64,000 bases of DNA, from positions 12,097,412-12,161,411 of the forward strand of contig JAKZAN010000006.1 of assembly GCA_023053545.1 (NCBI GenBank), read 5' to 3'. Source of the DNA: Lepidurus packardi. Its lineage: Eukaryota > Arthropoda > Branchiopoda > Notostraca > Triopsidae. The translations under genes were made by a program, and so were the position numbers. Below the pieces are notes generated by a model. The model searched no databases. It was given only the letters and a program-made list of their open reading frames with translations, and had not been told where the DNA came from. Of this stretch, positions 24,301 through 64,000 are shown piece after piece; within the stretch, counting starts at the first letter, position 1; the number at the start of each line of letters is the position of its first letter.

Positions 24301-25019
24301 TCTTCTGTCTGTACACAGAACTGTTCCTCTCTGTTCTGAAGAAGTTATAAATGTATTTGCAGGGAAGAAAAATCGTCGTTTAGATTTCGTCTTGTAACTT
24401 TCTTTTTGAGAATCAACAATAGCTTTTGCAGATGGCTCTTTTATTTTGACATTCTATTTATAATATGTATTACTTAGTATGGTATTTTAGCATAACAGTA
24501 CTAGAAGCTTCATATTTCTCGTTAGTAGTAATTTATGGCAAATAATTATATTGGTAACATTACTTAGTTATCGTTATTAAACTACTTTCATAATTTTCTG
24601 CATTTTTTATTTTGTTTATGACAATTTATACTTTTATTTAAATTTATATGTTTATATTAATATTATGTTTTTGCAAAATAGTGCACTTCATGTTTATAAA
24701 TGTTACACTCATTAGCAAGTTAATTTTATTTAAATTTATTGCCGCTGACGTCGACTCCTCCTAGTGGTGGCGGTGGGAAACACCTCTGCGACACGGGTTA
24801 AATACGATGAAACCAACCGGATATTACCTCCGTAAGGTGTAACATGAACCAACGTCACAGTGGCAGGCTAAACGTCGACAAAAAAACTCTCGCTAGTTTG
24901 AATGTGAAAATTAACTTTATGTGTATATAGTTATCGTCTAACTCTCTACATTCTATATGGAAAACTTGATAGATTAAGATGGTATACGAAAAAAATAGGA
25001 TTTCAAGTTCTCGGGTTAA

Positions 25020-30452: not shown

Positions 30453-32297
30453 TTAAGTGTAATCTAGCTTCTTCGAGCTGTTCTTCAATCGTTCCGAACG
30501 TCTGGGTTCCACCGGATTGTTAGGCAACCGGATGCGGGGAACGGGCGCCTCTGGTGACTTCTGCTGCGACTGAGGCTCAACTGGAACCGCAGGCGGACCA
30601 TCAAACACCTTCTCAGGGGCCGCCACCTGGTCTGCTTGAGGAGCAACCTGTTCAAACAAAGGCTTATTAGTATGCGGAGCTGAAGGCTGGACGGCTTGGG
30701 GAAATGGTGGACGGAACACTTCGACGACCGCTTCGTCCAGCTCGTTTCCTTCGTCGCTTCTTCTTATCTGGTCCCAATGGCGCTTCACAAGCGAGTCTCC
30801 TACTCGGACTTCGTAAAGGTACTTTCCGAGACGCCGGGCAATCATGGCCTGTTGCCACTTGGGGTAACCTTTGCGGAAATCCCGAACCATGACCGGGTCT
30901 CCTTGGGAATATTCGGCGCTAGACGTAGGAGAGGGAACGTCGAAAGCAGTGGGTTTGCTTGGCAGAAGTAGGTCCAGCTTGGTTCTGGGGGAATAGCCCA
31001 ACAAAACTTCTGCTGGACATTTCCCCGTGGAAGCGTGCTGTGTTGTGCGATAACCGAAGAGAAATCTTGACAGTTTCGCTTGCAGTGACAAGGAATCTTG
31101 GCTAGCTTTGCGTAGGCTGGTTTTTAGGGATTGGACGAAACGTTCGGCTAGCCCATTCGTCTGGGGATGGTAAGGCGCCCCCATCAAATGGCTAATCCCA
31201 TTCTGCTTGACAAAAACCGCCATTTCCTCTGACGTAAACTGAGGCCCGTTATCGGTCACGAGCTCGGAAGGCAGCCCAAAACGCGCAAAAATGGAGCGCA
31301 AGATTTCAATCGTCGCTTCCGTTGTAGTAGTGTGGACCACAAAGGCTTCTGGCCATTTGGTGTAAGCGTCCATGAGCAAAAATATCATTTTTCCCTCTAT
31401 AGGGCCCGCAAAGTCTGCGTGTAAACGTTGCCATGGTCCTTTGGGAGTTGGCCAAGCAGCATCTTTGAGTTGGTTTGGGGATCGCACTGCTACCTTGCAT
31501 TGAGGACATTTTCCAACCAACCTAGTTATCTCTTGATCCATTGCAGGCCACCAAAATTTACTCCGTGCCATGGATTTGGTGCGTGCAATACCAGTATGTC
31601 CTTCGTGCAATAAGGTAAGGACATCGTTACGTAACGTTGAAGGAACTGCGACACGACGTCCCCAGAGGATGGCGTCGTTTTCCAGCGACAACTCAAAACG
31701 CCGCATGTGAAACGGTTTTAATTCAACAGGAATCTTACCGGTCTTCCAACCACTCTTAACGAAACCTTGAACTTGGCCGAGTAGTGGATCCTGCTTTTGT
31801 TCTCGCAATAATTTTTCGAACGTAAGGGGTAAGCCCTCCAAAATTCCTAGGTTACAACAACTGGCAGCCATGGCCGCATAATCCACGGAGGTGTAGGGTA
31901 ATGGTGATCTTGAGAGGGCATCCGCATTTGCGTTCTCTTCCGACCGACGAAATTCCATTTCGTACGTGTAGGCCGTCAGTTTTAAAGCCCAACGTTGCAT
32001 ACGTGCTGCAGCAATTGCGGAAACTCCGGATTTGGGACCCAAGATCGAGAGCAACGGTTTATGGTCCGTGGCCAGTGTAAAACTCCTCCCGAACAAATAG
32101 TCGTGGAATCGCGAAACCCCAAAAATGATGGCAAGAGCTTCGCGCTCGATTTGGGAGTAGTTTCTCTCAGCTTTCGACAGTGTTTTGGAGGCATACGCAA
32201 CAGGACGCTCGTCTCCATTTGGGAACCGATGTGACAAGACAGCAGCGACTCCTACGGACGACGCGTCACATTCTAAGCGAATCGGCAAAGTCGGGTC
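30453..32297 (-). CDS. Gypsy pol, 3' half: RNase H and integrase
   Basis: Minus-strand frame that enters from the ISL2EU left end. RNase H: RLECDASSVGVAAVLSHRF and LATDHKPLLSIL. The integrase zinc domain is HEGHTGIARTKSMARSKFWW with CPQCK. The catalytic core has Asp in LHADFAGPIEGK, Asp in LVTDNGPQFTSEE and Glu in TNGLAERFVQSLK. The C-terminal chromatin/DNA-binding region (KGYPKWQQAMIARRLGKYLY) and a proline-rich tail follow. All catalytic residues are present. Integrase would insert the DNA copy into the genome. The open frame continues upstream into transposon sequence only by chance; the true continuation is at 34440. Confidence 0.95.
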   Translation of the reverse strand, partial: DPTLPIRLECDASSVGVAAVLSHRFPNGDERPVAYASKTLSKAERNYSQIEREALAIIFGVSRFHDYLFGRSFTLATDHKPLLSILGPKSGVSAIAAARMQRWALKLTAYTYEMEFRRSEENANADALSRSPLPYTSVDYAAMAASCCNLGILEGLPLTFEKLLREQKQDPLLGQVQGFVKSGWKTGKIPVELKPFHMRRFELSLENDAILWGRRVAVPSTLRNDVLTLLHEGHTGIARTKSMARSKFWWPAMDQEITRLVGKCPQCKVAVRSPNQLKDAAWPTPKGPWQRLHADFAGPIEGKMIFLLMDAYTKWPEAFVVHTTTTEATIEILRSIFARFGLPSELVTDNGPQFTSEEMAVFVKQNGISHLMGAPYHPQTNGLAERFVQSLKTSLRKASQDSLSLQAKLSRFLFGYRTTQHASTGKCPAEVLLGYSPRTKLDLLLPSKPTAFDVPSPTSSAEYSQGDPVMVRDFRKGYPKWQQAMIARRLGKYLYEVRVGDSLVKRHWDQIRRSDEGNELDEAVVEVFRPPFPQAVQPSAPHTNKPLFEQVAPQADQVAAPEKVFDGPPAVPVEPQSQQKSPEAPVPRIRLPNNPVEPRRSERLKNSSKKLDYT

Positions 32298-32537
32298 ATA
32301 GGGCTTATTCCACGAGCAGTTTCCTGGGTTAATCCACCAGATGCGACACTGTAGAAACCGTACGGCGGTGGCTACCGTGAGAACTAGGGAAAAGCAGCCA
32401 TTTCTTGAGAGTTTATATTTACGTTGGCCACTGTCACTAGAATACCAGTGGCGGGAATTCACTATTTACCCATTTAGTCTGTGATACACATGAAAGAGAC
32501 CCAGTGCGATTCATTCTGTGTTGTTATTTTTTGTAAT

Positions 32538-32745
32538 ATGGAACTAAATAAAAATTCAGATTGGACAACTTGCCTGACTTACGTTCCTTTTCTTAGTGAG
32601 AGTGTAATTAAGGAATACTTTAATCAGTGCACTGAAGGAAAAAGGCATTATAGGAGAAGCGAAACATTCCAAAAAGAACAGTATATTAGTAAGGTCGAAA
32701 CTTCGCAGACAGAAGATAACTGTATTCAGGTACGAGCTAAATGCT
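32538..32745 (+). pseudogene. N-terminal fragment of ISL2EU second protein (SWIM/YqaJ-type)
   Basis: ATG at 32538. MELNKNSDWTTCLTYVPFLS, then FNQCTEGKRHYRRSETFQKE and IQVRAKC. I recall this pattern from the N-terminus of the SWIM/YqaJ recombinase-like proteins encoded as second ORF by ISL2EU elements. After RAKC the frame becomes unrelated (FSWNRVGDTY), which is the deletion junction. The nuclease part is absent. The family call is from memory of motif texture and would need a profile search. Confidence 0.5.
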
Positions 32746-33600
32746 TTTCATGGAACCGAGTCGGAGATACATATACTGAATCCAACTTATTAACGTACGG
32801 CTAACAGTTGATTGACTAATGCCAAATCTGTGAGCTAGGTCTTGCTCGCATAAGTTGAGACGAAGGCGACATAAAACGACGAGAAGTTGATCTTTCCCGC
32901 TTAATTTTCTTTTCCCGATCCTGGGCGGCGAAAGAATTTCCTTAGACTCGGCATCACCACGCCACATGAAAACATTTTCGCCGTTTTCTCCAGCGCCTAG
33001 ATACTCATAAAGTGCGTTAAACTCTTCTACTTGTTCCATCCCTGCATAAAACTTGAGGAGGTTCGGGTCATCCTTAATATCGTTGAAACTTAATCTGCAC
33101 AGTGATAAAGTTTTAAGGCTTGCTTCAATGTCTGCTGTGAGTTTTTGCTCATTTGTCTTGAGGTCTGTAAGCTCCGCAACCAAATCCTGCTTCTCATTTT
33201 GCTCCTTTGCTAGTTCTATTTCTCCTTCTAACACCCGATGATCAAAGCGTAGATTTGCCACTTCAAGTTGAAACTTTAAATTTTCCCTTTCTTTTTTAAC
33301 TAGCTGAATGTTCGCCTGTGCGCTTTTCAATTTGGACTTCAGTTCCGCAATTTTGATTTTTGACATGGAAATCTTCGTTTTCGTACGGACTAGATCTTCA
33401 CGGATTTTCAGCATGTCGATAGACCGTTTCTCTAGGAGTGCTTCGTATTCAAGGTTTCTTTTCCTTTCTTCGTCAAGTTCTTTTTCGAGGCGAGCGATTG
33501 TGGCATTGTGCTGCAGTTCAATGGAGGTTATTGTTCCACAAGCAGTCTCGTCGAGTCTACTCTGTGAGTCTAAAGCACTCACGGTTTCAAGCTGCTGTTC
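32740..33600 (-). pseudogene. ISL2EU transposase, coiled coil plus HTH_Tnp_4, truncated
   Basis: Residues about 20-170 form a long heptad-rich coiled coil (ARLEKELDEERKRNLEYEAL). It is followed by KLSGKDQLLVVLCRLRLNLC and RFGISQSTVSRTLISWIQYM, the helix-turn-helix that precedes the DDE_4 nuclease in ISL2EU/Harbinger-like transposases. The frame ends at RLGSMKSI. The catalytic domain that should follow is deleted. It belongs to the same minus-strand gene as 33626-33862 and the THAP exon 33992-34210. Confidence 0.75.
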
Positions 33601-33625
33601 GTTGGAATCTAACTAGAATTTAATA

Positions 33626-33862
33626 CTATTTACATTTAAACGAATTACTGTCAGTACCCTGAACGTCGGCTTCAACTTCCCCGTCATAATAATCTGACTG
33701 CATTCCAGTAGCCTGTATTCCTGCTGCACAGGTTTCTTTTTCAGGTTCACGACAAGCTTGATTTATAGATAATAAGTCAAGACTCTTTTTGTTACTACAA
33801 TCCCGATTATCTAAATCAGGGACATTATCTATATCTAAATCAGGGACATTACTTTTGGACAT
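33626..33862 (-). pseudogene. Linker exon of ISL2EU transposase
   Basis: Acidic, low-complexity exon between the THAP exon and the coiled coil. It has a small internal repeat, NVPDLDI/DNVPDLDN. No domain; placed by position and strand. Confidence 0.45.
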
Positions 33863-33991
33863 TTAGGATTTTCACTTGGTTTGTTCTGAAACACTTGGCA
33901 AAACTTTAGGTTTTAGCTGTCGCCTGCCTATTGACGCATAAAAATCCTCGTCCTTGTAATGAAGGGAACAAATATGTGTGTGTCTTGGGCC

Positions 33992-34210
33992 CTACATGTA
34001 AGCATATTTTATAGTTGTGTTATTCAAGGAAACTTTATTTACGTGACAGTGCGGACCAATCTCTCGCTCGATTCTTCTACAGAACTCCTCTAATAACACA
34101 TAATCTTTCGGAACTTCATGAAACGATATCTTTAGTCCCGTGTCCTTCATAAACTTGGACAGCTTCTTTCCGAACTCCGACTTACATCCAGGTACACAGC
34201 ACCTCGTCAT
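33992..34210 (-). pseudogene. THAP zinc-finger exon of ISL2EU transposase
   Basis: MTRCCVPGCKSEFGKKLSKF and then SFHEVPKD match the start of a THAP domain: C-X-C-X3-5-C spacing, and a Pro after the first strand. THAP binds the transposon ends. The exon ends in a stop at YAYM, before the last Cys/His pair would be expected, so an exon junction or decay cuts it. It sits next to the right inverted repeat, as the N-terminal exon should. Confidence 0.65.
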
Positions 34211-34439
34211 TCTCCAAATTCATCACAGTTTAACTTTAAAATAATATCAACTGTTGTTTACAATACAATGACTTGTCTGACGAAGCGTCAGCGGTATCCT
34301 AGTAACAACTGGGAACCCAAATATAAACTCTCAAGAAATGGCGGCCTCAGCCTGGTTCCCTGCTATGCTAGCGCCGTACGGTTGCTACAGTGTCGCATCT
34401 GGTGGATTAACCCAGGAAACTGCTCGTGGAATAAGCCCT

Positions 34440-36710
34440 ATAGTGACACAGAACCTGCTGGGAGCTGAGATTCTGCTTCAGTCTTTTCCAAGCTTCTTCT
34501 TGAGGATGTCCCCAATGAAAACTACAACCTTGTCGGGTCAGTGCGGTCAATGGTTCCGCCAGTGTGGCTAAGTTTTTTATAAACTTCCCATAATACTGAA
34601 CCAAGCCCAGGAAGGATTTGATGTCTTTTGCATTCTTGGGCTTGGGCGCTTCTGAAACGGCACGTACTTTCGACGGGTCTGTTTTCAATCCGTCCGCAGA
34701 AACAATGATCCCCAGATATGGTACTTCAGTCCGTCCGAAAAAGCATTTGGACAAATCTAATCTAACATTGGCCTCTTGCAGCCGTTTAAGAACTTCCTCT
34801 GCCCGTTTTTTGTGTTCTTCCTTCGTAGTCCCGGATACAAGTATGTCATCCAGGTAGCATTTAACAAAGGGCAGGTCACGAAGTAATTCATCCATGAATT
34901 TTTGGAACTTCGCTGGAGCAGAAGCAATTCCGAATGGTAATCTGCAGTATTGATGTAAACCCCACTGGGTGTTGATTGTTGTCAACGGTTGGGATTCAGT
35001 GGCAAGGGAAAGCTGTAAATAAGCTTGCGAAAGATCCAACTTACTAAAGAAGGCTCCGCCTTCTAAAGTAGCGAAAAGATCCGCTGGTTTTGGTAGAGGA
35101 TACTGGTCGATTAAGAGTTCGGGGTTTACGGACATTTTGTAATCTCGGCAGATACGAAAATGACCATTAGGTTTTGGGACTACTACGATTGGTGCAGCCC
35201 AATCGCTATAATCGACTTTCTTTATTATTCCGTCAGCTTCTAACCGATCAAGTTCCTTTTTTACTGGTTCACATAAGGCATAAGGAAGGGAACGCGGTCT
35301 GTTAAAGCGAGGAATAGCCGAAGGCTTCAAATCTAATTTGACCTCCGCAATTGGTGTTGTTCGAAAGTCCAACGATTCAAACAACGGAGCGTATTGCGCA
35401 CGGAGGCGCTCCGGAGAACAAAGCTGTCCTGGAAACTCCAGGGTGTTAACGCGGGCAGAAGCAAATAAGCTTCCGATCTCGGCGTCAATTCCGAACTGTT
35501 TAAGGATGTCACGACCCAGCACCGGATCCCGCGGCAGGTCAACCACTCCGAGGTCGACTGCCAATGTAGTGCCCTGAAGGCTTAAAGGCATATTGACTTT
35601 GCCGATAATTGGTACACCATGACCAGTGAACGCATTTACCCTAACTTCGGGAGCCTGTAGTGACGGAGATCCCAATTGTCTCCATGTAGCTTTAGGTATT
35701 AGGGAAACGGATGAGCCTGTATCCAACTCCATTTTAACGGGTTGCCCAGCGATGCAAACGTCAATCCAATAGGGTTCTGAGTGGCCCATTTTGGATAAAA
35801 AAACAGAGCGGAGAGAGTAAAGCCTTTCGCTATAATCTTCATTGTCCGATTCTTCTTGAAGATAATGAGATTTAGCCCTGTTATCGTTTTGACTCTTCTG
35901 ATTACCAGGGAAACTAATCCTTGATTCTGATGGCAACGTTGACCGACTGCGACAGACCGCCGCAAAATGTCCCTTCTTATGGCAGGCTTTGCAGACTTGG
36001 TTTAAGGCAGGACAGTTCTTGCTGTTAGCTTTATGAGCACTGTTGCCACACAGGAAACAAGATCCCGGGGATCCAGGCCTACTCTTCTGTAGAGCGTTAA
36101 CTGCGCCCGCTAAAGACATTTGCTGGGCTTTCGACTTAGCGTTTTCAAGAGACGCAGCCAATTGAAATGCCCTGTTCAACGTTAAATCCGATTCTGAGAG
36201 AAGCTTGCCTTGGACATTTACGTCATGAAGGACTACAACGAAAGCATCTCGCAACGCGGACTCCACGAAACTGCCAAAATTGCAGTCGCGAGACAACATG
36301 CGTAGCTCGGCAAGAAAATCCTTGAGCGATTCCCCTTGCTTCTGAGTTCTCTTATAAAAATTGAAACGTTCTGCTATTTCTATTGTCGATTCGACGAAAT
36401 GTGAATTTAAGATATCGCAAATCTCTTCGAAAGATTTCGAGGTTGGCTCAGCAGGTGAACATAACTTCCAAAGCGTTTGACAAGCGAAGTCGCCAACCAA
36501 TGGAAAAAAACAAGCCCTCTTTTGCTCAGGGTCAACAATGCCGTTGGCGATATAAAACTGGCAGAGTCTGCTTAAGTATATACGCCAGTTGCTATCTTGT
36601 ACATAAGGCTCGATACTTCCCAAAACCCGACCAGCAGAAACCGCAGACGAAGCTGGGTTGGTTCTTGCAGCTGCGACGGATGTAGCCATGACGTCAACAG
36701 GTAACGGCAA
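34440..36710 (-). CDS. Gypsy gag-pol, 5' half: gag, protease, reverse transcriptase
   Basis: ATG at 36710 (MPLPVDVMATSV; a second Met follows at residue 8). Gag capsid region: FACQTLWKLCSPAEPTSKSF and FNFYKRTQKQGESLKDFLAE. Two knuckles are CFLCGNSAHKANSKNC, which has unusual spacing, and CKACHKKGHFAAVC. Protease: VKMELDTGSSVSLIP. The RT has SKLDLSQAYLQL, LPFGIASAPAKFQKF and YLDDILVSG with both catalytic Asp residues. It runs up to the ISL2EU insertion at 34440, after which the frame continues at 32297. Gag and pol are in one frame with no shift. Nothing else is broken, so before the nested insertion this was a potentially active element. Confidence 0.95.
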
Positions 36711-39368: not shown

Positions 39369-40515
39369 CGAGCAGGAGAAGCAGTGCCGATCCTTCTCTA
39401 CAGTGACAGCGACTGCTGCACAGCAGAGGGCTCACGGTCGAAATACCAGCTTCTTTTCGAACAGTGGACGGGTCTCCAAGTTCGCCTTGACATCTGGCGT
39501 TTTATGCGGCGTCTGGCCGTGGGATGTACCGGCGAGTCCCAGCCTCTGTATGGCACCTTCATGACCAGATTGTCGTCCTGCATATTCGAATGGGATGCCA
39601 CGGATCTCGATGCCTTGCGAGCTGCCAAGAAGAGGGAAGTGGAGATGGAGGGGCTTTCCAATCCTTGTGTCGCGGCGGTCAACAAGGCCATCAGCAAATC
39701 CGAGATGACACGCCATTGTCGTCGGCGTACTCGTGGTACCCAAGAGACGAGGGACCACATCGCAGCCCTGATTCTTTCGTTGACTTTGGCCACGGATTCG
39801 CTGGGAGTTCCGTTGCTCAAGGAAGACATGAAGGAAACCTGGGACTTTGAGAGGAAACACGTCAAGTGTATCCAAGATCCCCAGCTCTACACGATAACTG
39901 GAACATTGACCAAGGGAGGCCTCAGTTTACCGGTGTGCTCGTGGCTCCACCTCCCTTGAGTCTTTCCATTTGCACTTGGCTCGCTTTATTCCGGGTAAGG
40001 CATTACATTGTATGACTTTGGTTGAATAACGTTTGATACATAATTTATTTAGTATCGTAGGAACCAGCTTCCAGGCGTACAAGTTCCAGGCGTACCTTTT
40101 GGATGACGTCACACGCTTTAACGCTGCGAGAGCTTCTGCAGCCGTTGCCAACTCTCGACCCTTGCGTTGCTTCGACGCCAAGTTGATGCAGCGAGTCAAC
40201 ACGCTGTATGAGCAAGTACTGTGCCATCCATTGTTGCCAGAGCATCGCGCTCCAGGCCAGTATACAGGGGAGCTGCTGGGAGTGGAATTCCTCTACCAGC
40301 AAACTGGCTGGACCCTTCCCACGGATAACACTGCAGTCGATGAGGGGATTGACGAGGGTGTTCAGGACATGGATCTCTTTTTGGAACCCGATTCCCTCAC
40401 CGTGCTGCAGGAGCCGGAAGAGCTGGACGCCACCATTCCGGGGAATCCGGTGGAAACTGAAGAACGACGACAGGGACTGCGAGCTGACTGTGGAAGCAAT
40501 GCCGGAACCAACTGA
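39369..40515 (+). pseudogene. Relic of a large repeat-derived gene family (KDZ/Zisupton-like, uncertain)
   Basis: Exon 1 (acceptor near 39366) reads LRRLAVGC-type text: RLDIWRFMRRLAVGCTGESQ, then RHCRRRTRGTQETRDHIAAL and DSLGVPLLKEDMKETW. A frame change near 39922 leads into RCARGSTSLESFHLHLARF and a donor GTAAGG. Exon 2 from 40059 reads TSFQAYKFQAYLLDDVTRFN and [17 protein letters not shown], then an acidic tail ending at 40515. I recall this order from expanded uncharacterised proteins in fish and invertebrate genomes, possibly the nuclease part of a KDZ-type transposon. One frameshift and a 14-bp duplication (TTCCAGGCGTAC repeated) indicate decay. The intron is about 68 nt. Confidence 0.5.
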
Positions 40516-40634
40516 AGAAGCCTTGGATTACCGATTGATCGGTGGCTGGGGCAAGGTGGATCAGTTGGCAGCGGCGTTGATCAAGACAGAAGGCCTTGCT
40601 GTCAGCAAAAGGCCTTGCTGTCGGCCCCCATCTA

Positions 40635-40734
40635 TCCAATCAGCGGTCGCACAGTTCTTTGCCGTGTTCGAGGAGGAGGTGCCTGGACTATATATATTTG
40701 GGTCAGTGAATTGTGACTCGAACAGCGGTGCACA
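40635..40734 (+). promoter_or_regulatory. Histone H2B promoter elements
   Basis: CCAAT within ATCCAATCAGCGG at about 40636-40648 and a TATATATA box at about 40689-40697, 40-46 bp before the ATG. This is the usual compact layout of replication-dependent histone genes. Confidence 0.7.
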
Positions 40735-41107
40735 ATGCCTCCCAAGACAAGCGGTAAAGCAGCCAAGAAGGCGGGGCAAGGCCCAGAAGAACATTTCCAA
40801 GACCGACAAGAAGAAGAAGCGCCGCAGGAAGGAGAGCTATGCTATCTACATTTACAAAGTGCTCAAACAAGTTCACCCTGACACCGGCGTTTCCAGCAAA
40901 GCCATGAGTATCATGAACAGCTTTGTCAATGACATTTTTGAGCGCATTGCGGCCGAAGCTTCCCGTTTGGCCCACTACAACAAACGCTCGACCATAACCA
41001 GTCGGGAAATCCAGACGGCCGTTCGTCTGCTCCTGCCCGGTGAGTTGGCTAAGCATGCCGTCAGTGAAGGCACTAAAGCCGTCACCAAGTACACTAGCTC
41101 CAAGTAA
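40735..41107 (+). pseudogene. H2B: Histone H2B with a 1-nt frameshift
   Basis: ATG at 40735 gives [14 protein letters not shown], the insect/crustacean H2B start. One extra base in the GGGG run at 40773-40776 shifts the frame. From about 40777 the neighbouring frame reads [20 protein letters not shown], then [20 protein letters not shown] and the rest of the histone fold to [10 protein letters not shown] and TAA at 41105. Length without the extra base would be 123 residues, standard for H2B, which pairs with H2A in the nucleosome. Promoter and 3' stem-loop are intact, so it is either a very fresh pseudogene or a base-calling error in a homopolymer. Confidence 0.95.
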
Positions 41108-41132
41108 GAGCTTTCGCCTGGAAGAAAAACTC

Positions 41133-41148
41133 AACGGCCCTTTTCAGG
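41133..41148 (+). terminator. Histone mRNA 3' stem-loop
   Basis: GGCCCTTTTCAGGGCC, an exact 6-bp stem with TTTC-type loop, 26 nt after the H2B stop. It is the processing signal of replication-dependent histone mRNAs. Confidence 0.95.
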
Positions 41149-41834
41149 GCCAACCAATTTCTTGATGAAAGTTCAAACTGCTTGCTTTTTCTTATGTCTT
41201 TTCGAACAGATAATTTTAAGGTTGCTGTTTTAAATATCGACTCTTGAGAGATTTTGAATACACACACATTTGACTATTCCGTACGCTACTTTACTCCCAA
41301 GTTTCGTCATGTCTGAGAACCCGAAAAGCGTTCTTGGTGGACGGGTTAGGCCGAAGAGCGGGTCAGGCCGGGACTCATAGCATTCCTTCGGCCTGTTCAT
41401 CCATTCGTGATCGTGTTCCTTCAAGACGTAGATTTTTGAACAGTTGCAGATGATAGTCGACCATGTACAAGGGAAAAATCGAGATTGAAAACGCGTCTAT
41501 CTTTGAAACTGCTCAGTCCCTGAAGAGTCAGGGCTTAATGGGGACTGTTTGCCCAAAATAGATCGCGTTAGTAATGCGTATACCAAGATGTCATTGTATT
41601 GATTGTTGTTCACGAAGATATGATACATATGAAGCAAATAAAAATAGCCAAATACAGTAGCGAACATTTGTGTGCTGTAAGGAAATGTCAATTCAGTAGT
41701 AATTGAATAACAGTCGAATAAACTTTAAAAAATTCCAATGCCATATGGTTTGTGAGATAACGCACCGCGTCTCAGCTCAGGCATAACCGTAACACCAAGC
41801 GCGATTCTCAGTTGGCTAATGCTCTACATTAGAT
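41149..41834. other. Spacer between H2B and the 5S rRNA gene
   Basis: Short ORFs only, such as MSENPKSVLGGRVRPKSGSG at about 41310 and MYKGKIEIENASIFETAQSL at about 41465, neither recognised. No other histone gene is present. Confidence 0.5.
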
Positions 41835-41889
41835 GCCAACGGCCATACCACGCAGAATGTACCCAGACTCGTCAGCTCCTGGAAGTCAA
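41835..41889 (+). rRNA. 5S rRNA, 5' part (nt 1-55), interrupted by a LINE
   Basis: Starts GCCAACGGCCATACCACG, as metazoan 5S does. It runs to GGAAGTCAA at nt 55 and then stops at the LINE. Helix II arm ACGCAG pairs with CTGCGT in the 3' part at 49663-49669, a compensatory change from the common ACGCTG/CAGCGT. The last 14 bases (41876-41889) are the target duplication. The internal Pol III control region lies on the other side of the insert, so this half cannot be transcribed as 5S. Confidence 0.9.
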
Positions 41890-42699
41890 TTCCGATCGCT
41901 CCCGAGCAAAAGTCATTTCTAGTTCATATATTGTCACAAGAGTTAAACCCCTGTGATTGCGTGCGTTCTTGTTTTGTTGTGGTTTATTAATTATATAAGA
42001 GAATAGTGCTTTTTGGATACGGTACTAATTAAAAGTTACCTTTTTCTGTTTTCCTTTTTTTTGTTTGTTTTCGTCGCTTGGCGAAGACGTGCCCGATTCT
42101 CAAGTAATTGCGACGGCTTCCTTTGCATAATTGAAAGGTAAGCGACACATAAGTGTATAATTTTGTTATTTTCGTGCAGTTTTTGCGTGTATTTGCCAAA
42201 TTTTTCCCACTTTTCCCAACAAAATTGTCAGTAACCAGATTCCAGATACGTCTGGTTAACTCCTTTTCCGCTCTTTCCTCAGTGTTATGCAAGCACACGA
42301 AAACGTTTTAACACAAAATAACCGATCAGCTGTATTTCATTTCCACCAACAGTTGCGTAATCACTCCTCTACTCGGCGCTAGCTATTGCCCTCTTTACTT
42401 CTTTCTCCAACACACTGACAAGTCAACTCCGCTCCAACTTAACTGACTATCGCTTCTACCTTCTCTTACTCTCTCTTTCTGACTAACTCTTTCCCAACAA
42501 ACCACCACCAGAAAACCGTACAAAGAAAAGGATCAACCCTCCCCCCAACTCGATACTCTTCCATCGCCGTCCCCACACAAAAATATGTGACGTATCTACG
42601 TGCACATGACATTAGTTTCGAAACTCGCACACGTGAGGCGAGCATCCCCCATTTCCAGCTTTTTCTGGTTTTGTGTCTTTTTTGAGCCAAGAAAAAAAA

Positions 42700-44015
42700 A
42701 TGGATTCCACGGGAATTGGCCAAAAGCTAACCCGTTTGAACACTGCGTTCATTAATTTGGCTCAATTACCGTGGAACGACTTACCGTCTCACTCTTTTTT
42801 CATAAAAAATTAATGAAAGAGTATGGCGTCATGGAAGAGGACTTAGCTTGTATTGACATTGACAAGCACAATAAAACGTGGAACCTAAAATTCAAAAATG
42901 AAAGGGCACTACAAAAATTCATTGAAGCTTGTGGAGGAGAGATCCAACTTGTCCACAACAACGGCACAAAATATGACTTGCCAGTAAGCACCACAGAGTG
43001 CAAGCATATTATTCTCTTACTATCAAAACTTCCCTTTCAAATCCGGGAGGCACAAGTGCTAGACGCAATTAAGGAATACGGACGAATCATAAAATTTCGC
43101 CGTGAAATCTTCACAGGAACTAACATTTTCAAAGTGGCAAGGGAAAGGGCCACTGTTCAATTCCTAATGACAAAGGATGTACCTCCCTTTGTAGATATTT
43201 TGGGCGCATCCGTACAGATCCAATACCCTGGGCAGAAAGAAATGTGCAACTACTGCAAAAGCCTAGGTCACAACCGAAATGCATGCCCGAAGCTAGCTTC
43301 GAAGCAAAAAAGATTCGAGGAGGACTTCCCTCCATTGATTGCTGACAGTGCTGGCGCAGGGAGAACAACAGAGGAGGAGGTTCGGAGCACAGTAGCAAAC
43401 CCGGAGCCCCTCGGAGACACACCAGAGGTGGGTCAGGGTCCGACACGTCGGCCAACAGAGGGGGGTGACACGGGGAATAATGCAGAGTTAGAAGCTCAGA
43501 TAGAGCAAGAGATGGAGGTACAGGAGTGCGTCATAGAAGTACCAGTCTCAGAGGCGTCCATCTTGACAGAAGAGGCGAATACTGAGGAACTAGCAGCTTT
43601 AGAGGTCCAGAACCGTTTTGAAGTTTTAGGGACACTAGGCGTAGAGGACGAAGGGTCCAAGAAAACCGAAGAAAATCTGATAGTACAACAAGAAAATACA
43701 AATAAAATTGAGAAAACCCAAAGCCTGGAAACACCAAACCAGGCACCTAAAACAACTAAGCTGCAGCAAGCTAGGGAAAAATCAGGACACAGCTTACGCC
43801 TGAAAAAAATGCGCACAGGTGAATATGAAAATTTGAATACGCCAGAGAAATCGAAGGAAGCACAGGATAATCCAATCGAAAGCAGGGAAAGAACTGAAGA
43901 GGTACAGAAAGAACCGATGTTACTCGTACCCCAATCAACAAAGAAAAAGTGTACGCCAATAACAACTAGATCGCAGAGAGCAGCGTCGATAAGGGCAGGT
44001 AAATCCCCACGCTAA
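42700..44015 (+). pseudogene. LINE ORF1 (RRM-like, CCHC), one frameshift
   Basis: ATG at 42700 gives MDSTGIGQKLTRLNTAFINL, then LPWNDLPSHSFFIK. At the A6 run 42804-42809 the frame shifts by one and continues as LMKEYGVMEEDLACIDIDKH. The middle resembles an RRM-like or transposase-22-like fold (LLSKLPFQIREAQVLDAIKE, then YGRIIKFRREIF). A knuckle CNYCKSLGHNRNAC (CX2CX4HX4C) lies near residue 185 of the main frame. The remaining 240 residues are acidic and probably disordered. ORF1 binds the element RNA and helps reverse transcription. The frameshift lies in a homopolymer, so it may be recent or an error. It ends one base before ORF2. Confidence 0.85.
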
Positions 44016-44016
44016 A

Positions 44017-47000
44017 ATGCAAAGTTTAAATGAAGAGATTAAGTTATGTAGTCTAAATATAAGAGGTCTAAAACAACCGATGAAGCAGAAATTGTGGACA
44101 AACTTTATTGAAAAATACGAAATAGATATAGTCTGCCTTCAGGAATTCAATATAGATTTCAACCCAAATCCTGATAGATTTGATCTCATTTGTGATTTAG
44201 GACCTGCAAAACCAGGTATAGGTATTCTCTATAGAAAAGAGCTTGAATTAAAGAATTTTAAAACATCAACGACAGGTAGAATCTTACAAGCTTTTTTTAA
44301 AAACTTTATCGTGTTAAATGTCTATGGCCACCCAGGTAATCACCCAGCAGACGAGAGAAATGAGCTTTTTAATATATTTTTACCAATTTATCTATAAAAT
44401 GAAAACACACATACAGTATTAGTGGGCGATTTTAACGTTGTAATAGACGTGAAAGACGCTACCACACCGCGCATGAACGAGTTCCTAAAACGCGCAATAA
44501 AAGGCTTTGAACTAGTCGACGCATATCGCCTTCAACACGCGCTAACAACAGACTTTACCTTTCTACACCCCAAAGGAGGAGCTAGACTCGACAGAATTTA
44601 TTTGGGCAAAGGTTTGAAAAATAATTTTCATAAAATAGAGCACACAACTTTCGTGGGATCTGACCACAAAGCGGTCATAGTAACACTCAAAGGCGCCCCT
44701 GAAGACATAACAAGAGAAGAAATAAGACGGAGACCCAATAGATGGCACCTAAACCAAGACATGTTAAGCGACCCGCGCTTCGACATACACGTTAAGGAAC
44801 TAACTCAAGAGTTTACTACACGACTGGATTCAAAGAAACCTTACATAAGGTGCTGGAATAATTATAAAAAGAAAATTCAGCTATTTGCCAAGGGCCTCCA
44901 GCAAGAGATAAAGATGGAGCAAAATGTACTGAGATCGTTTTACAAGAGTTGTTTCGATGAAGCAAGTGAGAAAGTCAGTGCAAAAACAGGGGGTTGGGAG
45001 GACTTTGTGTACTATAGACAAAAATTGAGAGAAATGGAAACAAGTCAAATACAAGATGCATTATACAAAAGCCGAATAGATAGTATACAAAAAGGCGAAC
45101 AAGCAAGCCTATCTCACGTACTGGAAGAAAAAAGGAAAGCTAACCAGAGCATCTTTAAAAGTTTACGAAGAACAGATGGGGAGCTGATTCACAAGGAAGA
45201 GGACATGAGAGCTTTATTCGAAAACCATTTCCAAACTATCTACACACCGGAAGAAGAAACAGAAGAATCGGAAGTTTTTGGAACAACTTTTTTAGAGACG
45301 GCAATATCCAATGATGACCTAGAAAATTTAAATCAAACTATAATGTGCAGAGAAGTTAGAACAGCAATTAATTTATTACCTCGGAATAAATCCCCAGGAC
45401 CGGACGGGCTTAGTGTCGAATTCTATACAAGATTTGCAGAGATTTTATCACCTCTACTGGTACTTTTAGCCAATGAAGTCTTCCAGGGGGGGGGGGGGGG
45501 GGGGATCAAAGAGGGAGACAATGACAGTCTACTTAAACTTTTAGCGAAGGGAGGAGATAAAAAAAACATTCAAAACTGGAGACCAATCGCACTACTAAAC
45601 TCAGACTATAAAATTTTAGCAAAGTTGCTCGCTGAGCGAATTAAGCCATATCTAACGCAGGTAATCGTTCCTCATCAAACTGGGGCAGTGCCAGGGAGGA
45701 ACATTACGGACAACTTAACTAAAATTAGGAATGCAATAGAGTTTGCAACAGAGAGGTACAGGCAATATCCAGAAAACTTTAGTAATTATAAAATCGATTC
45801 AATTGCGAGATTAGGCGTCATCGTACTAGATCTCGAGAAAGCATACGATAGAGTAAACAGAAGCTATTTATTTAAAATCATGAAACTTTACGGCTTCCCA
45901 GACTACATCATTAATAGCAAACAAGGACTCTACGAACATGCGAGATGCAAAATCTTAATCAATAAAATATCCACCAAGCCGGTAAACTTGAATAGAGGAG
46001 TAAGACAAGGGTGTCCTTTATCTCTTTATTTATTTAGTATATATATAAACCCTTTATTAACCAAATTAGCACATGCATTGCATGGGTTTGATATCATAGG
46101 GGAAAAACAGACAGTAACGGGTTACGTGGATGATCTAACAATACTAACGGCTAAGGAGACGGATTTTAAACTTATAGAGAAAACCCTAGATGCCTTTTGT
46201 CACTCATCAGGTGCAAAAATTAACTGGGAAAAATCAGGCATTATCCCTTTTGGGGCATGGAAGGGGAGAGAAGACTGGGCCATACCAAAATTGAAATTGA
46301 AAACCAAGCAAGATTTGCAGATTCTAGGGATTATCTTCAAGCAAAACATGTCCGAAACAATTTCCAATAACTCAAAAATTATAGTACAATATGCAACTAA
46401 GAAATTCTACGTCTGGAAAACAAGATTTTTATCCATTCATCAAAAAGTTAGTTACGTCAAACTTTATATTTTACCACTTTTTTATCACCTGGCAAGAATT
46501 TTAACAATTACAAAGCCCTGCATACGATTGATGAAACAAAAAGTAGGGACCTTTGTATGGGGCGGTAGGTTGGAGAGATTAGCCTATGAAGAAATTTTAA
46601 ACGCACGTGCAGACGGGGGACTGGGCCTCGTGGACCTAGAGAGCCAGTGTAAAAGCTTCCAGTTACAGAAGCTGTGGAATGACTCACAATCAACCGACAG
46701 AGCTACGAAAAGAATTGTAACGTATTTTACGGCTATACCATGGCGTAAAATATACCAAACACCAAATGGACCCAAAGCGGAAGTTATACCCCTGTCATTA
46801 AAAGACGCGATCACAACAATGGGCGAACTCGCACATTTTTTAAAACGCGACCAAGCCTTCCCAAGAAAGGAAGTGTATCAGTTTTTAACTGCAAAAAAAT
46901 TAAAAACACCCAAGGTTATAGCTAAATACGGAGACAATGATTACCCAACTATTTGGAAAAACCTTAGCAGTAAAATTTTAACCTTGGAAGTTAAAGATCA

Positions 47001-47427
47001 CGTATTCTATCAGGTGCACGACATCCACCCTACCACGGTAAGATTAAAAAGATGTAGACGGTCAGTGACGGACGTATGCGACCAATGCCAATGCAAAGAA
47101 GATATTAATCACACTTTTTCTTGCAAAAAGCTTCAAACAGCTAATGATTGGGCAAAGAGTGTCCTAGTTCGAGTACTGCCGAATACACTCATGTCGAAGG
47201 CGTACATGCTCGATTTTCTGGTAGACGGGAGGGAGAGCCACCAAGCGAGTGTGTGGTTTATGGCCGAGTACGCATACCACCTGTGGAAAGCGAGAAAAAA
47301 AGGTGACGATGCAGCAGGCGAAATAAAAGCTAGAATGAAACATCGTTTAGAAATACAACGGAACGTAAGCCCAGCGCTGGCAACACTGAGCTGCATATTC
47401 CAGAATAAGAACTCACAAGTTGACTAA
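44017..47427 (+). pseudogene. LINE ORF2: endonuclease, reverse transcriptase, C-terminal Cys-His; one in-frame stop
   Basis: ATG at 44017 gives MQSLNEEIKLCSLNIRGL, the start of an APE-type endonuclease; CLQEF, VGDFNVVID, RLDRIYLG and GSDHKAV complete it. A TAA at 44395-44397 breaks the same frame before NENTHTVLVGDFN. RT: NKSPGPDGLSVEFY, NWRPIALLNSDYKILAKLL, LDLEKAYDRVNR, RGVRQGCPLS and GYVDDLTIL with both Asp residues. The C-terminal region has CDQCQCKEDINHTFSCKKL. A 19-G run (45486-45504) sits between RT motifs. Endonuclease would nick the 5S target and RT would copy the RNA there. Length (1136 codons) is normal for the clade. Confidence 0.93.
45486..45504 (+). repeat. G19 homopolymer in the LINE RT domain
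   Basis: Codes for six Gly in frame, between VFQ and IKEGDNDSLL, where relatives have a variable but non-glycine stretch. Confidence 0.85.
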
Positions 47428-49611
47428 GAAGAAGCGTAGAACCTTTTCTTTATATTTGCCTGCTTGGTTAAGCATATAATAAAAAAAAATAATAATAATA
47501 AAAAAATATATATATCATTGCTGTCGGTTAAAAGCATAGTGCTCTAAAACAAACCGATTGGTTCAGTAGAGGTTCAGTAAAAAAGCTGGATTTTAGATTA
47601 ATGTAGAACACCCTACCAAAAAAGATGTAGAACCTTTGGTTCCCAAGAAACTGTGTGATTCACAAGATGTTGTTTGATTAACCAGGAAACCGAACCCCCC
47701 TCAAAAAAAAAAAATAAAAAAAAATCCCCTTGTCTTTATACTTGCCAAATGTAGAACACTAGAAATGTAACACTAAACTGAAATCTAACACTTCCACATT
47801 TGAAGAAAAAAACAATGAAATGGACGCATCCACAGCAAAAACAGAGAACGGGACGTAATCAACATCTTATAGAAGCTTATACCAGGATTGCCGCTTAATA
47901 GACGAATAATAGTTTAAACCACCAAAACATAATCAACAAATGGATTTACTGCAACACATTGCAGATACGTTTTTGGATACTCAATGCAAAATTACCCCAC
48001 CACAAAGTCAAATTATACTCGTCATTGCCAGAGCGAACATGCTAATCAAGGAATAAATTGTCCAAAGGAAGCAAAACACGAGGAGGAGGAGGAAAAAAAA
48101 AGAAAAAAAAAAAAAAAAAAAAAAAGAAAAAGACTACTACTATTAACAAAATCCACATACAAAAGAAGAAAGAATTGCATACTAACCAAACGAAAACTAA
48201 CAAAATATAACACTAAACTGAAAGAACACTAACATTTAACAAGATCTAAAAAAATACAAAAAAAAAAATCTAACATTAACTGAACAGTTTATTAGACGAA
48301 AATTGTCTAAACCATCAAAACATCATCAGCAAATGCAATCATTGCAACAAATTAAAGGAGAGGGTAATTTTGGGACACCAATTGTTAGAATTACCTTACC
48401 ACAAAGTCAGCTTGGTGCGCGTCATCTACATAGCGAACAAACTCACCAAGGAAGAAGTGAGCTAAATGAAGCCAAACATCAGAGAAAGGCTGGCGAGGAA
48501 AAAAAAAAAAAAAAAAAAAAAAAAAACCCGCTTAACTACATCCGAACAGTCATGAAAGGATAACCACCAAATATTGCGGGAATACAAACTCCTGGAACGC
48601 GAATTACTTCGGAGCTGATTAAAACACAATGTGGAAGTTTTACACTATAAGAGACACGAATTTGGATACCCAAAGCAAAATCATCCAACCACAAAGTCAA
48701 ATTATACTTGACATTGCCAGAACGAACATACTCATCAAAGATTAAGAAGACCAAACAACACCCGAACAGGCGATAGCGACGAAAGTTGAGGACTACCATG
48801 ACGAAGTTAGACAACAAATGAAGCCGTACAAGTTGTCTGGAGCACAATCATAGAGGCCTACCAATACTTCTAAAAAAAAAAAAAAAAAAAAAAAAAGAAA
48901 AAAAAATACAAATAAAAAAAAAATAGCACTCTGAATATTGTCACGGTCTAATTTTGCAAGGGCATCAATCTGGCAAGGGATTAGAGTAATGTTCGGGAAA
49001 GGTGGATTTATAGAACTGTATTTGGGAAAATTACAGTGGTAAAGTTAGGAGGACAAACACTACATGAAAAACAGAGGACTAGCACATAAAACACGACTAC
49101 TCTTCAGCACCTCAACGCTCGACTCTCTGTCTCCGTCTAGCCTAGACTCCCGTCCAAGACCAATTTGCAAGGAAGCTTACTCCTCACCATTCGCCAAGCT
49201 GGGCATGCAATCCCACGTAGCTCCGGTGCTCTATCCGACACCATGTGCGTCAGCAGGATTGCAATTCAGCACATGGGTTCAGGGATCAACTTAGCTCTGT
49301 GCCAAGTTGGCTGCAAAGATTAGCAAAGCGTGAGAAAAGCAAGCAATGCGAAATGTAGCCGTGACAATATTGTGACTGTCACCAAACCCAGAACACACTC
49401 ATCGGAGTTGTCAATAAAACAAAGCAGGCAACAAATGTTGTCCCATGGGCAAGCTCAAATTCAGTGCCAAGTAGTTCGAAATATTAAGCAACCGTGCATT
49501 CCCCGTATCACAGAAAGTAACCTGTAGCGTGATAATCTCTTTAATTCCAACTATTTGTAACCCTCGCAAATGCAAAATTATTCGACTCACAATTGCAATA
49601 CAATTGTTTTA

Positions 49612-49648
<37 letters not shown>
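47428..49648 (+). repeat. LINE 3' UTR with repeated A-tailed modules
   Basis: The sequence CCACAAAGTCA...(C/A)GAACA appears near 48000, 48398 and 48688, each time followed 70-170 bp later by a poly(A) tract (48105, 48500, 48872). TTA.TAGACGAA...TCAACAAATG is shared by the first two modules. The final tail is A-rich at 49618-49648. This looks like tandem 3' end modules. Confidence 0.75.
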
Positions 49649-49651
<3 letters not shown>

Positions 49652-49725
49652 CTGGAATTCAAGCTGCGTCGGGCCCGGTCAGTACTTGGATGGGTGACCG
49701 CCTGGGAACACCGGGTGCTGTTGGC
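49649..49725 (+). rRNA. 5S rRNA, 3' part with Pol III control region
   Basis: After the duplicated CTCCTGGAATTCAA comes GCTGCGTCGGGCCCGG, then TACTTGGATGGGTGACCGCC, to GGGTGCTGTTGGC, the near-invariant 3' half of animal 5S. Box A, intermediate element and box C are all present. With the 5' part the gene would be 118 nt, the normal size. The LINE poly(A) abuts it directly. Confidence 0.95.
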
Positions 49726-49730
49726 TTTTT
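49726..49730 (+). terminator. Pol III terminator of the 5S gene
   Basis: TTTTT directly after the last 5S base, within GGCTTTTTCG. Confidence 0.85.
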
Positions 49731-50255: not shown

Positions 50256-51210
50256 ATGGTATTCACCCTGGCTTTAAAAATCTTGACAATAAAAGCTGCT
50301 CGTCGATCACTTCGTAAAATTCACAGGACGGAAACTTTCTGGACGGAGATCATAAACAAGACCTGGACTGACAAGGAATGGAAAACCAACATCCGTGTAA
50401 CGCGACGCACTTTCCAGTACATTTGTGATCTCCTGCGAGAAAACCTAACCAAAAAGAAAACCAACTTCTGTGTACCCATCTCTTGTGAAAAACAAGTTGC
50501 CCTCACGCTATGGCGCCTAGGAACAAATATCGAATTTCGGTCTCTGGCTACCATTTTTGGTGCAAGCAAAACAACAGCGTTCCATGAAACTCGCGACGCC
50601 CTGGTTGTTCTCCTAGGGTACTCCATAATAACAATGCCTAAAGGTGACCGGTTGCAAGAAATGATATCGAGCTTTCAGAGGGGAAAATTGCCCCAGTTGG
50701 AGCCATTGATGGTACACATATCCCTATTTTGGCACCGAAATAACACAGTTCTGACTATTACTGTGTACGAAAGGGTACGTACACGGTTGTACTTTGAGCT
50801 GTTGTGGATTTCTCAGGGCGTTTTATCAACATCAACGTTGGCTGTCCTGGCTCGGTGCACGATGCAAGAATTTTTGCAAACAGCAAATTGCACCGGCTTG
50901 GCCGGCAAAATCGTCTATTCCCCAATCTAAGAAAACTTGTGAACGGGATAAATGTCCCATGTTATATCATTGGTGACGCCGCTTATCCACTCTTATCTTG
51001 GCTTATGAAGCTTTATCCTACACATGCGATTACTGACGAGAAGGAACGTTTCAACAACATTTTGAGCAGTAATCGCATGGTAGTAGAACGGGCCTTCGGG
51101 AAACTGAAAGGTCAATGGAGATGTCTCCTGAAAAGGAATGATATAAACATTTTCCGCATTAACAGAGTTATATATGCATGTAATATATATATATATATTA
51201 TACAACATTT
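50256..51210 (+). pseudogene. Harbinger transposase (DDE_4), frameshift and stops
   Basis: The N-terminal part has RVTRRTFQYICDLLRENL and SLATIFGASKTTAFHETRD, a helix-turn-helix ahead of the nuclease. A frameshift near 50695 changes frames just before AIDGTHIPI, the first catalytic Asp. In that frame TAA and TGA follow within about 60 codons. The rest is open: VVDFSGRFININVGCPGSVH, DARIF with the second Asp, GDAAYPLLSWLMKLYP, and NRMVVERAFGKLKGQWRCL with the Glu. This is the HARBI1-like family. The C-terminus dissolves into a TA-rich stretch near 51180. At least three lesions make it non-functional. Confidence 0.88.
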
Positions 51211-51251
51211 ATATGTATATTACATTTATATGTATATTACACAACATTTGC

Positions 51252-51930
51252 GAGGACCAAGGAGACCTCTTTGATTCGTGTTCTGCTGCTCCAAAAACTG
51301 AGCATCTCGCTCAGCAAAGCCCTGCATGAGAGACTCGATTGACTTCAAATCGTCTGTCTTGCTTCTCTTTCTCGGAGGCGGCCTACCCACGACAGAACTT
51401 GAAGATTCGTTACGCGTATCTACTTTCAAGTATAATTAATTTGTGCTAGGAATAGATCAAAGTAATTACCGTCAGAATCACTTTGTAATGCTGATGTGTC
51501 ATCATCTATACGATCGTCAATTGGAGTAATGGAATAGGGTATGGAACAAGATGTGGACGGAACAGGAGACATGGAATCCAAAATTTCAACGGGATTCGAA
51601 CTTGGACGATGCCCCAATACTTTGTTCATATCTTCGAAGTATGGATTATCGTCCATATTGAAGTCACCAGCACCACTTTGTGAAATTTTCTTTAACGCTT
51701 ACCGATGATCCCTTTTGAGGTTCTTGAGTTTCTCCTTAATTTGATCCGACGAACGGACGTACTTGTACTCAAGCATTTTGTTTTCAAGTTCCTTAAATAG
51801 GGTATCCTTTCTCTTCATTCCTTCGAATTGTGTCTGCATAGCAGGGTCTCCCCATAGATTAATCAGAAACCTCGTTTCTTTTACTCCCCAGATGGATCTT
51901 TTTTATGGGGTCAGCCATAACTGCATTAAA
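51252..51930 (-). pseudogene. Harbinger Myb/SANT-like DNA-binding protein
   Basis: Minus strand. Near 51930 the ORF begins MADPIKKIHLG, then shifts frame to TRFLINLWGDPAMQTQFEGM, and further on IKEKLKNLKRDHR, a trihelix Myb_DNA-bind_4 domain. One in-frame TAA follows DHR. Then come DNPYFEDMNKVLGHRPSSNP, an approximately 50-nt intron ending near 51424, and a basic exon RPPPRKRSKTDDLKSIESLM. This protein normally brings the transposase to the element ends. Frameshift and stop match the decay of the partner gene. Confidence 0.75.
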
Positions 51931-57115: not shown

Positions 57116-57126
57116 ACTTTATTAGG

Positions 57127-57560
<434 letters not shown>

Positions 57561-62291: not shown

Positions 62292-64000
62292 CTAGTCTTC
62301 GGGCTCAGCTATTTCCATCAAACAGAGCTTGGCTACTGGCCGGACATACTCCCCATGTTTTGTTTTGACAAGTGCCGTTCTGACGAGGCCATCAGGTCCG
62401 GGGTATACCTGAATCACTCGTGCGATTGGCCAGAGTCCTCTTGGACTGTTCTCCTCGATCAACAGCACGACGTCATCAGGTTGAAGGTTGCGGTTCGGTC
62501 GAACCCATTTCCTACGTTCAATGATGGACGGCACATACTCTCGCAGCCATCGGTGCCAGAATCGCTCGGTTATCGCTTGGGAAGCTCTCCAACGTTTACG
62601 AGCATTAAGATCTTCATCCGTCACGAGTCCAATCGGCAGGTTAGGGTTGGCTCGGCCCAGCAAGAAGTGATTCGGCGTCACCGGCTCCGGATCTTCAGGA
62701 TTCATACTGAGATGCGTCAAGGGTCTACCATTCAGCAGTGACTCCACTTCTGCCATAACGGTTGTGAAGATTTAGTCCGTTACGGTTTGATTCCGCAATG
62801 TGTATCTAAGGGCGACCTTAGCGGAGCGTACCAGACGTTCCCAGACTCCGCCAAAGTGTGGGGACGCAGGGGGGTAAAAGTGCCAACTGATTTTTCTCTG
62901 TGCCAGCTCGTCCGCAATTCGCTTCTCGTTCCAGGCTTTCAAGTTTTGCCGGAGCTCCTTCTCACCTGCACTTAGGTTAGTTACATTATCACTAAAAACG
63001 TGCACCGGATCGCCGCGACGGCTGACAAATCGTCTAAAAGACAAGATAAACGAGTCAGTATCTAGTGAGTGTGCAACTTCCAGGTGGACTGCGCGCGTGA
63101 CGAGGAAAGTGAAGAGGCAAACGTAACGTTTGGGAACTATTCGATGAATTACGACCGCGAACGGTCCAAAGTAATCCACGCCAACGTTCGTGAATGGTGG
63201 GCTATACGTATCTAGTCGTTGCAGGGGTAATGCAGCCATCAACGGGACGCACGGCTTGGCTCGATAACGGTTACAGGTGAACCAGCCGTTTACAATCTTG
63301 TTCACAGCAGCCCGACCTCCTGTCACCGAGTACTGGAGACGCAAATCGGCTAAAGTTCGGTCGGTTGACCCATGTGCTAGCCTTTCGTGTGTACTGCGGA
63401 TTAGTAATGCCGTCAGCGGGCTATCAGGGCTCAGGAGTATAGGGTGCTTGACGTTGGACGGGACGTCGGCATGTTGGATTCTTCCGCCCACCCGCATGAT
63501 ACTTTGCTCGTCCAGGAAGGGAGTCAGCTTCAGGAGTTTCGAATTGCGCGGGAGCGGTTCTTTCTTCTCCAGGGCAGCATAATCCAATCCCATGAGGCGC
63601 TTCTGTTCTACCGTGATGAACTTGAGAAGGGCATCGCTGCATTCAGCAACTGACAGGGGCCCCTTCTCCACGGAAAACTTGGACGGTCGCGCGTTCCTGG
63701 TAAAGCGAAGAGTCCAAGCCCGAATACGCTTCAAACTGTTTAGGTTAGACGTACCTCGCAGGACTTCGAGTGATTCGTCTTTGTCTACCCCTACAGAGGC
63801 AATCAGTGGTGGTAATATTTCTTGGTCAGTGTTATCGGGCTCTCTTCGGATTTGTTCAGCGGCCACTCAGAGGGCGGCTGATGGAGGAAAGTTGGCCCGT
63901 TGAGCCATCGGTTCGGTGTGACCAGAGAAGTTGCTTCTGTCGGTGGGCGACGCGTAAATAGGCGACAGCCCCAAAGGCGATTTCGGACGCGTCCGCAAAG
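62292..64000 (-). pseudogene. BEL/Pao pol, integrase half, with a frameshift and a nonsense codon
   Basis: From the right edge one frame reads RWLNGPTFLHQPPSEWP, the end of RNase H. A one-base shift near 63865 leads to AAEQIRREPDNTDQEILPPL. Then come the integrase zinc domain (LTPFLDEQSIMRVGGRI, HERLAHGSTDRTLADLRL), the catalytic core (GVDYFGPFAV, HVFSDNVTN, GGVWERLVRSAK) and, after TAA at 62772-62774 in the same frame, the DUF5641 tail from 62756 (EVESLLNGRPLTHLSMNPED; LLGRANPNLPIGLVTDEDLN). Catalytic D, D and E are visible, but SDNVTN replaces the usual SDNGTN. The two lesions inactivate it. It is a different family from the BEL at 1-7116. Confidence 0.9.

Follow-up and report, generated by a model that had tools for sequence, protein, structure and literature searches.

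Why should a 5S ribosomal RNA (rRNA) gene be split by nearly 8 kb of other DNA, and does the split record a single accident or the habit of an element that seeks this site? The question is raised by the 64,000-nt stretch shown above (the window, from Lepidurus packardi contig JAKZAN010000006.1), where a 118-nt 5S gene is interrupted by a long interspersed nuclear element (LINE) in the same orientation as the gene. Comparing sequences across the genome, we conclude with high confidence that the LINE belongs to an L1-group family, carried by a Lepidurus-like crustacean, with strict specificity for a single site in the 5S rRNA gene. The family combines a single 5S position, a reverse transcriptase (RT), a poly(A) tail and a target-site duplication, the features that characterize a 5S-specific non-LTR (long terminal repeat) retrotransposon.

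The initial annotation had placed the two 5S halves at 41835-41889 and 49649-49725, flanking a LINE of about 7.76 kb, and both blastn and the coordinates agree (Table 1). It had also derived a 14-bp duplication from 5S nt 42-55, which can indeed be read letter by letter on both sides of the insert, as CTCCTGGAAGTCAA upstream (41876-41889) and as CTCCTGGAATTCAA downstream (49649-49662). An uninterrupted 5S gene elsewhere in the same genome is recognized by the Rfam 5S model at 104 bits; the split gene stays under the Rfam cut-off, and at a looser threshold its 3' half is matched at model positions 67-109 only (E 0.0064). Since this half begins at 5S nt 42, the internal RNA polymerase III promoter, whose boxes we take to lie where they do in Xenopus, is kept, wholly downstream of the insert, just as had been proposed.

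The arrangement recurs throughout the genome, which is assembled in 344 contigs totalling 108.6 Mb. A pattern of the initial 23 nt of the LINE, with up to three mismatches allowed, matched 21 places, and at every one of these the LINE starts directly after 5S nt 55; the reversed 23-nt pattern, which served as a control, had no genome match. The 5S joint was read through a junction pattern that includes 5S nt 36-55 in 14 cases, the others being L052, L053 and the five loci L056-L060. One additional T is present at the 5' joint in seven of the 21, and L041 has a more diverged 5' end with an identical joint and a short 5S remnant upstream. At the other end, a poly(A) tract leads into 5S nt 42 at 17 places. 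Chance is excluded as a source of these exact, constantly oriented joints because the 5' junction pattern matched 15 genome places and the 3' pattern 17, against none for either reversed pattern. The canonical LINE 3' end, in a count of 15 places that omits matches falling short of the end (for example on C100, C58, C7 and C86, and at C2:38672), continues into 5S nt 42 at 12 of them, and a third, most diverged type of 3' end (about 78% identical) is joined to 5S nt 42 at all five ends that reach that far. The initial annotation had suggested searching other LINE 3' ends for trailing 5S sequence, copies at unrelated sites being the outcome that would speak against its proposal of a mobile element with a 5S-specific site rather than a lone event; with 21/21 5' ends and 12/15 3' ends at 5S, that proposal is upheld.

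Some observations weigh against strict specificity. Three of the 15 canonical 3' ends, at C4:2209970, C2:2608941 and C2:2610095, have no 5S after them and were all counted as misses; all three lie within 5S clusters, one at the edge of an N gap that separates 5S genes, the other two within L045, a rearranged copy with its 5' end in 5S. Degenerate internal fragments of open reading frame 2 (ORF2), which may or may not adjoin 5S, are found at C5:12450069, C2:1761505, C3:4304656, C2:1608157 and C3:748195. Finally, the junctions are not all independent, because some copies have been multiplied by duplication of the arrays: the 300-bp upstream flanks of L032 and L033 are identical, L029 and L045 have identical flanks, and L031 and L032 have identical ORF2 sequences.

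Such identities, together with that of two of the five diverged 3' ends (C41 and C2:1036201), would also be produced by passive copying, in which one or two chance insertions of a LINE without site preference spread as the 5S/histone arrays expanded. We hold this to be very improbable in view of the variety of the copies. There are diverged subfamilies with different 3' ends: in ORF2 nucleotides, subfamily A (window, L039, L043) and subfamily B (L027, L028, L029, L031, L032, L034, L045) are 88-93% identical, with L030 intermediate, and the 300-bp upstream flanks are unrelated among several copies. Both 5S junctions are present in eight long copies (window, L027, L028, L029, L030, L031, L032, L034), and very short inserts also have 5S on both sides (L042, 83 nt and 5'-truncated; L041, 116 nt). 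Poly(A) lengths vary, and these tails, the truncated copy and the other 3' end positions described below all meet 5S at the same base; the genome search found no complete copy at any site other than 5S. Insertion has been repeated, as the subfamilies, the truncated copies and the unrelated flanks show. Scarcely credible is the further idea that collapsed 5S arrays were misjoined to the LINE in assembly, or that the joints come from a contaminant. There are N gaps in 5S arrays (L035, L043), and some contigs of the assembly in which COX1 reads open appear bacterial, but the base-exact junctions with their clean 14-bp duplication are repeated across five of the long contigs (C1-C5) as well as smaller contigs.

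ORF2 is open to residue 1,122 in four of the 11 copies compared (L027, L029, L034, L045), both ORFs being open in L027 and L029. Between L029 and L043, over 896 codons, the nonsynonymous (dN) and synonymous (dS) divergences of ORF2 are 0.050 and 0.408 by NG86 and 0.055 and 0.301 by YN00, and with dN so low against dS, the ORF2 protein has been kept under purifying selection. In a genome search with ORF2 (46 of 406 candidates scored, 52 matches listed), identity among the matches listed falls from at least 52% to at most 28%, and hence a second genomic family of this kind does not appear among them.

The joints imply a bottom-strand cut between 5S nt 41 and 42 and a top-strand cut between nt 55 and 56. 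We propose that the apurinic/apyrimidinic endonuclease (APE)-type domain of ORF2 would nick the bottom strand, freeing a primer end (...CCAGGAG-3') that has no T run; that ORF2 would reverse-transcribe polyadenylated RNA from this nick by target-primed reverse transcription, as does L1 ORF2p, the nearest solved fold; and that the top-strand cut, presumably the later of the two, would give rise to the 14-bp duplication. L1 inserts at T-rich sites across the genome, whereas this LINE uses one fixed, GC-containing 5S site. Since the primer end lacks a T run, poly(A) cannot pair with it in the way that it does with the T-rich primer ends of L1, and the site would therefore have to stem from protein-DNA recognition. 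By analogy with Tx1L, for which Christensen and colleagues reportedly provided the precedent in 2000, the endonuclease would be the part that sets the site. Selection of the template, on the other side, would fall to the poly(A) tail and not to a structure in the 3' untranslated region (UTR).

The choice of RNA template seems loose, to judge from the sequences that precede 5S nt 42: the canonical LINE end is found at 12 of the 17 poly(A)/5S junctions, and something else at five. Four of the latter (L013, L021, L023, L024; assigned by reading) carry other LINE positions. The remaining one (L017/L036) has a 344-nt piece of 5S/histone spacer, joined to 5S nt 42 by a run of 23 A. At L036 (C4:13467800-13477750, near C4:13468179) this piece ends 20 nt past an AATAAA of the spacer; its end with the A tail occurs at one exact genome place, with a second match at two mismatches, and one match came from the reversed control as well. 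Upstream of the spacer piece, L036 is a 97% copy of a region of C6 where the 5S 5' half would be expected, and the locus may be a rearrangement. A processed gene copy, which had been considered for the L036 insert, was ruled out, as its last 344 nt are 5S spacer. We suggest tentatively, and with some doubt, that a strict DNA target may go together with a relaxed RNA template, such that suitable polyadenylated RNAs, the element's own or others', could be written at 5S nt 42.

What kind of LINE would do this? The ORF2 protein of L029 (1,122 amino acids) has an APE-type endonuclease (Exo_endo_phos, E 4.4e-12) and an RT (RVT_1, E 1.2e-33), and a C-terminal zinc-binding match that is weak and under its cut-off. 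A search of PDB sequences returned human L1 ORF2p first (E 3.3e-57) and R2 at E 3.7e-23. An AlphaFold2 model of the protein, built from 33 sequences (mean predicted local distance difference test score 87.5, predicted template modeling score 0.84), is nearest in fold to full-length human L1 ORF2p (E 9.6e-48), with R2 next; for its N-terminal domain the match is to the L1 endonuclease (TMt 0.81). The NCBIfam matches were confined to distant RT and exonuclease families and scored far under their cut-offs, and a scan of viral contigs revealed no relative. ORF1 had no significant relative among the 120 listed homologues (best E 0.038).

By both sequence and fold, then, human L1 ORF2p is the nearest solved protein. 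The finer placement was approached with an RT tree of 49 rows, comprising 45 of the 120 listed homologues, three copies of the LINE and a stretch of human L1, with no named Tx1, Mutsu or R1 sequence among them; human L1 fills 49% of the columns, and composition is uneven in 35 rows, with long branches in places. The family falls within a 14-row group (SH-aLRT 100) of unnamed proteins, and in the unconstrained tree it stands apart from proteins of Branchiostoma, Pleurodeles, Xiphophorus and Muraenolepis. A constraint joining the 14-row group to a six-row set that includes those four was not rejected (approximately unbiased (AU) test, p 0.216). The label of Tx1-like LINE given by the initial annotation therefore stands in part: the RT is of the L1 group, the family is Tx1-like in habit, and Tx1 is no more than a candidate clade, as the tree neither joins the family to vertebrate proteins that look Tx1-like nor rejects the joining.

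This bears on how the family came by its target. It could be a true member of the Tx1 clade, to which Mutsu presumably belongs, and share 5S targeting with that fish element by descent. The target gene is the same as that of Mutsu, described as an element of zebrafish 5S rRNA genes (PMC3706591); and the APE endonuclease, the two ORFs and the target specificity are as in the Tx1 clade, characterized as target-specific with an APE-like endonuclease (PMC4640811). The AU result is compatible with such descent, but the unconstrained tree puts the family with the unnamed proteins instead, and Mutsu enters the comparison by its description only, its sequence and exact 5S position lying outside it. 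We consider descent from a common 5S-targeting ancestor possible, though somewhat doubtful. If 5S specificity arose apart from Mutsu, two LINE lineages would have converged on the same gene.

The 5S-specific family proposed here can be set beside several known systems. Mutsu is likewise a non-LTR retrotransposon specific for 5S genes and differs in its fish host. The Tx1 clade (Tx1, Keno, Dewa) shares the APE-type endonuclease and a specificity for multicopy RNA genes or repeats (PMC4640811; PMC3706591), but its members have other targets and are not clearly joined to this LINE in the RT tree. Dada-5S elements of fishes also insert within 5S rRNA genes (PMC8869645); they are, however, DNA transposons with a DDE transposase, whereas this LINE has an RT, an APE endonuclease and poly(A). 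LINEs of the R2 type, with a restriction-like endonuclease (RLE), likewise occupy one rRNA-gene site by target-primed reverse transcription, but in another gene and with a single ORF, in contrast to the N-terminal APE endonuclease and two ORFs seen here. The initial annotation had held that an arthropod family with this exact site could be new. The host is an arthropod, and the literature searched, which leaves most subscription papers outside, yielded no 5S-specific arthropod LINE and only zebrafish Mutsu and fish Dada-5S in the parts accessible; the accessible portions of PMC3747384, PMC5753468, PMC4455052, PMC7943196 and PMC11354594 make no mention of such LINEs in arthropods. We make no claim of a first in arthropods. 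With its base-exact junctions, its several subfamilies and its copies in which both ORFs are open, the family extends 5S-gene targeting by LINEs to a crustacean, and it makes both target choice and template choice biochemically testable. Proteins of site-specific LINEs are of interest for DNA writing at multicopy loci.

Table 1. Features of the split 5S gene and its LINE insert, in window coordinates.
Feature	Position	Strand	Remark
5S 5' half, nt 1-55	41835..41889	+	blastn against rejoined 5S, 100%
LINE insert, 7,759 nt (terminal 32 A included), from TTCCGATCGC to 32-nt poly(A)	41890..49648	+	same 5' end at 21 genome places
Later nested repeat in LINE 5' UTR	42284..42613	.	missing from L028; many genome matches
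ORF1 region, frame broken, CCHC zinc knuckle motif	42700..44015	+	ATG at 42700
ORF2 region: APE-type endonuclease, RT (YVDD), C-terminal Cys/His motif	44017..47427	+	
Nested element, short terminal inverted repeats ATATTGTCACGG / CCGTGACAATAT (by reading)	48935..49371	.	missing from L028
Canonical LINE 3' end with poly(A)	49376..49648	+	genome search, query 447-686
5S 3' half, nt 42-118	49649..49725	+	one mismatch to rejoined 5S

The copy in the window had been called full length, and this is accurate as regards its ends; the copy itself is dead, through a frameshift, a stop and two nested elements. The frame of ORF1 changes near 42.79-42.81 kb. In ORF2, whose ATG lies one base past the ORF1 stop, codon 44395-44397 is an in-frame stop, and 19 consecutive G (45486-45504) lie in the RT region. 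The CCHC motif of ORF1 was found by reading, and zf-CCHC_4 matches it at E 0.0049, under its cut-off. Defined against the uninterrupted copy L028 (6,511 nt), the two nested elements account for about 840 nt of the insert, at 42284-42613 and within 48865-49375. The second, when searched alone, has many copies in the genome; a reading of the whole last 0.8 kb of the insert as LINE was accordingly ruled out, 48935-49371 being another element.

About 0.7 kb upstream of the split gene lies a histone H2B coding region, within 40208-41176 (Pfam Histone, E 1.7e-24), with a histone 3' stem-loop at 41131-41176 that scores 33.1 bits, just under its cut-off. Histone stem-loops are also found in intact 5S units on other contigs (see L035 and L044), and 5S genes are therefore interspersed with histone genes. 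Set against the 21 LINE 5' junctions, the assembly holds 103 uninterrupted 5S sites (31-mer, up to two mismatches), and the 5S genes among the histone genes give shelter to a parasite that spares most of them.

As to the host, the long nuclear contig C6 contains a COX1 copy with one stop, whose translation shares 98% identity with Lepidurus apus and L. couesii and 96-97% with Triops. By this one mitochondrial insert, the host is a notostracan crustacean, most likely Lepidurus. Many COX1 copies on C1, C2, C4, C5, C6, C21 and C38 are broken and contain TGA codons, and are mitochondrial inserts in nuclear DNA. Possible contaminant contigs are C52, C214 and C43, and also C76, C78, C91, C135, C174 and C228, the signs being COX1 open in the standard code and a second type of 5S gene, which forms 180-bp arrays on C135 and C174. 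Elsewhere in the window, other mobile-element ORFs lie at 3590-5146, 22730-24397, 30453-36710, 50256-51274 and 62292-63866, including a DDE_1 (pogo/Tc-like) transposase and, by reading, hAT-like, Gypsy-like, Harbinger-like and BEL/Pao-like products, and a long TA dinucleotide repeat at 57122-57523 is open on both strands.

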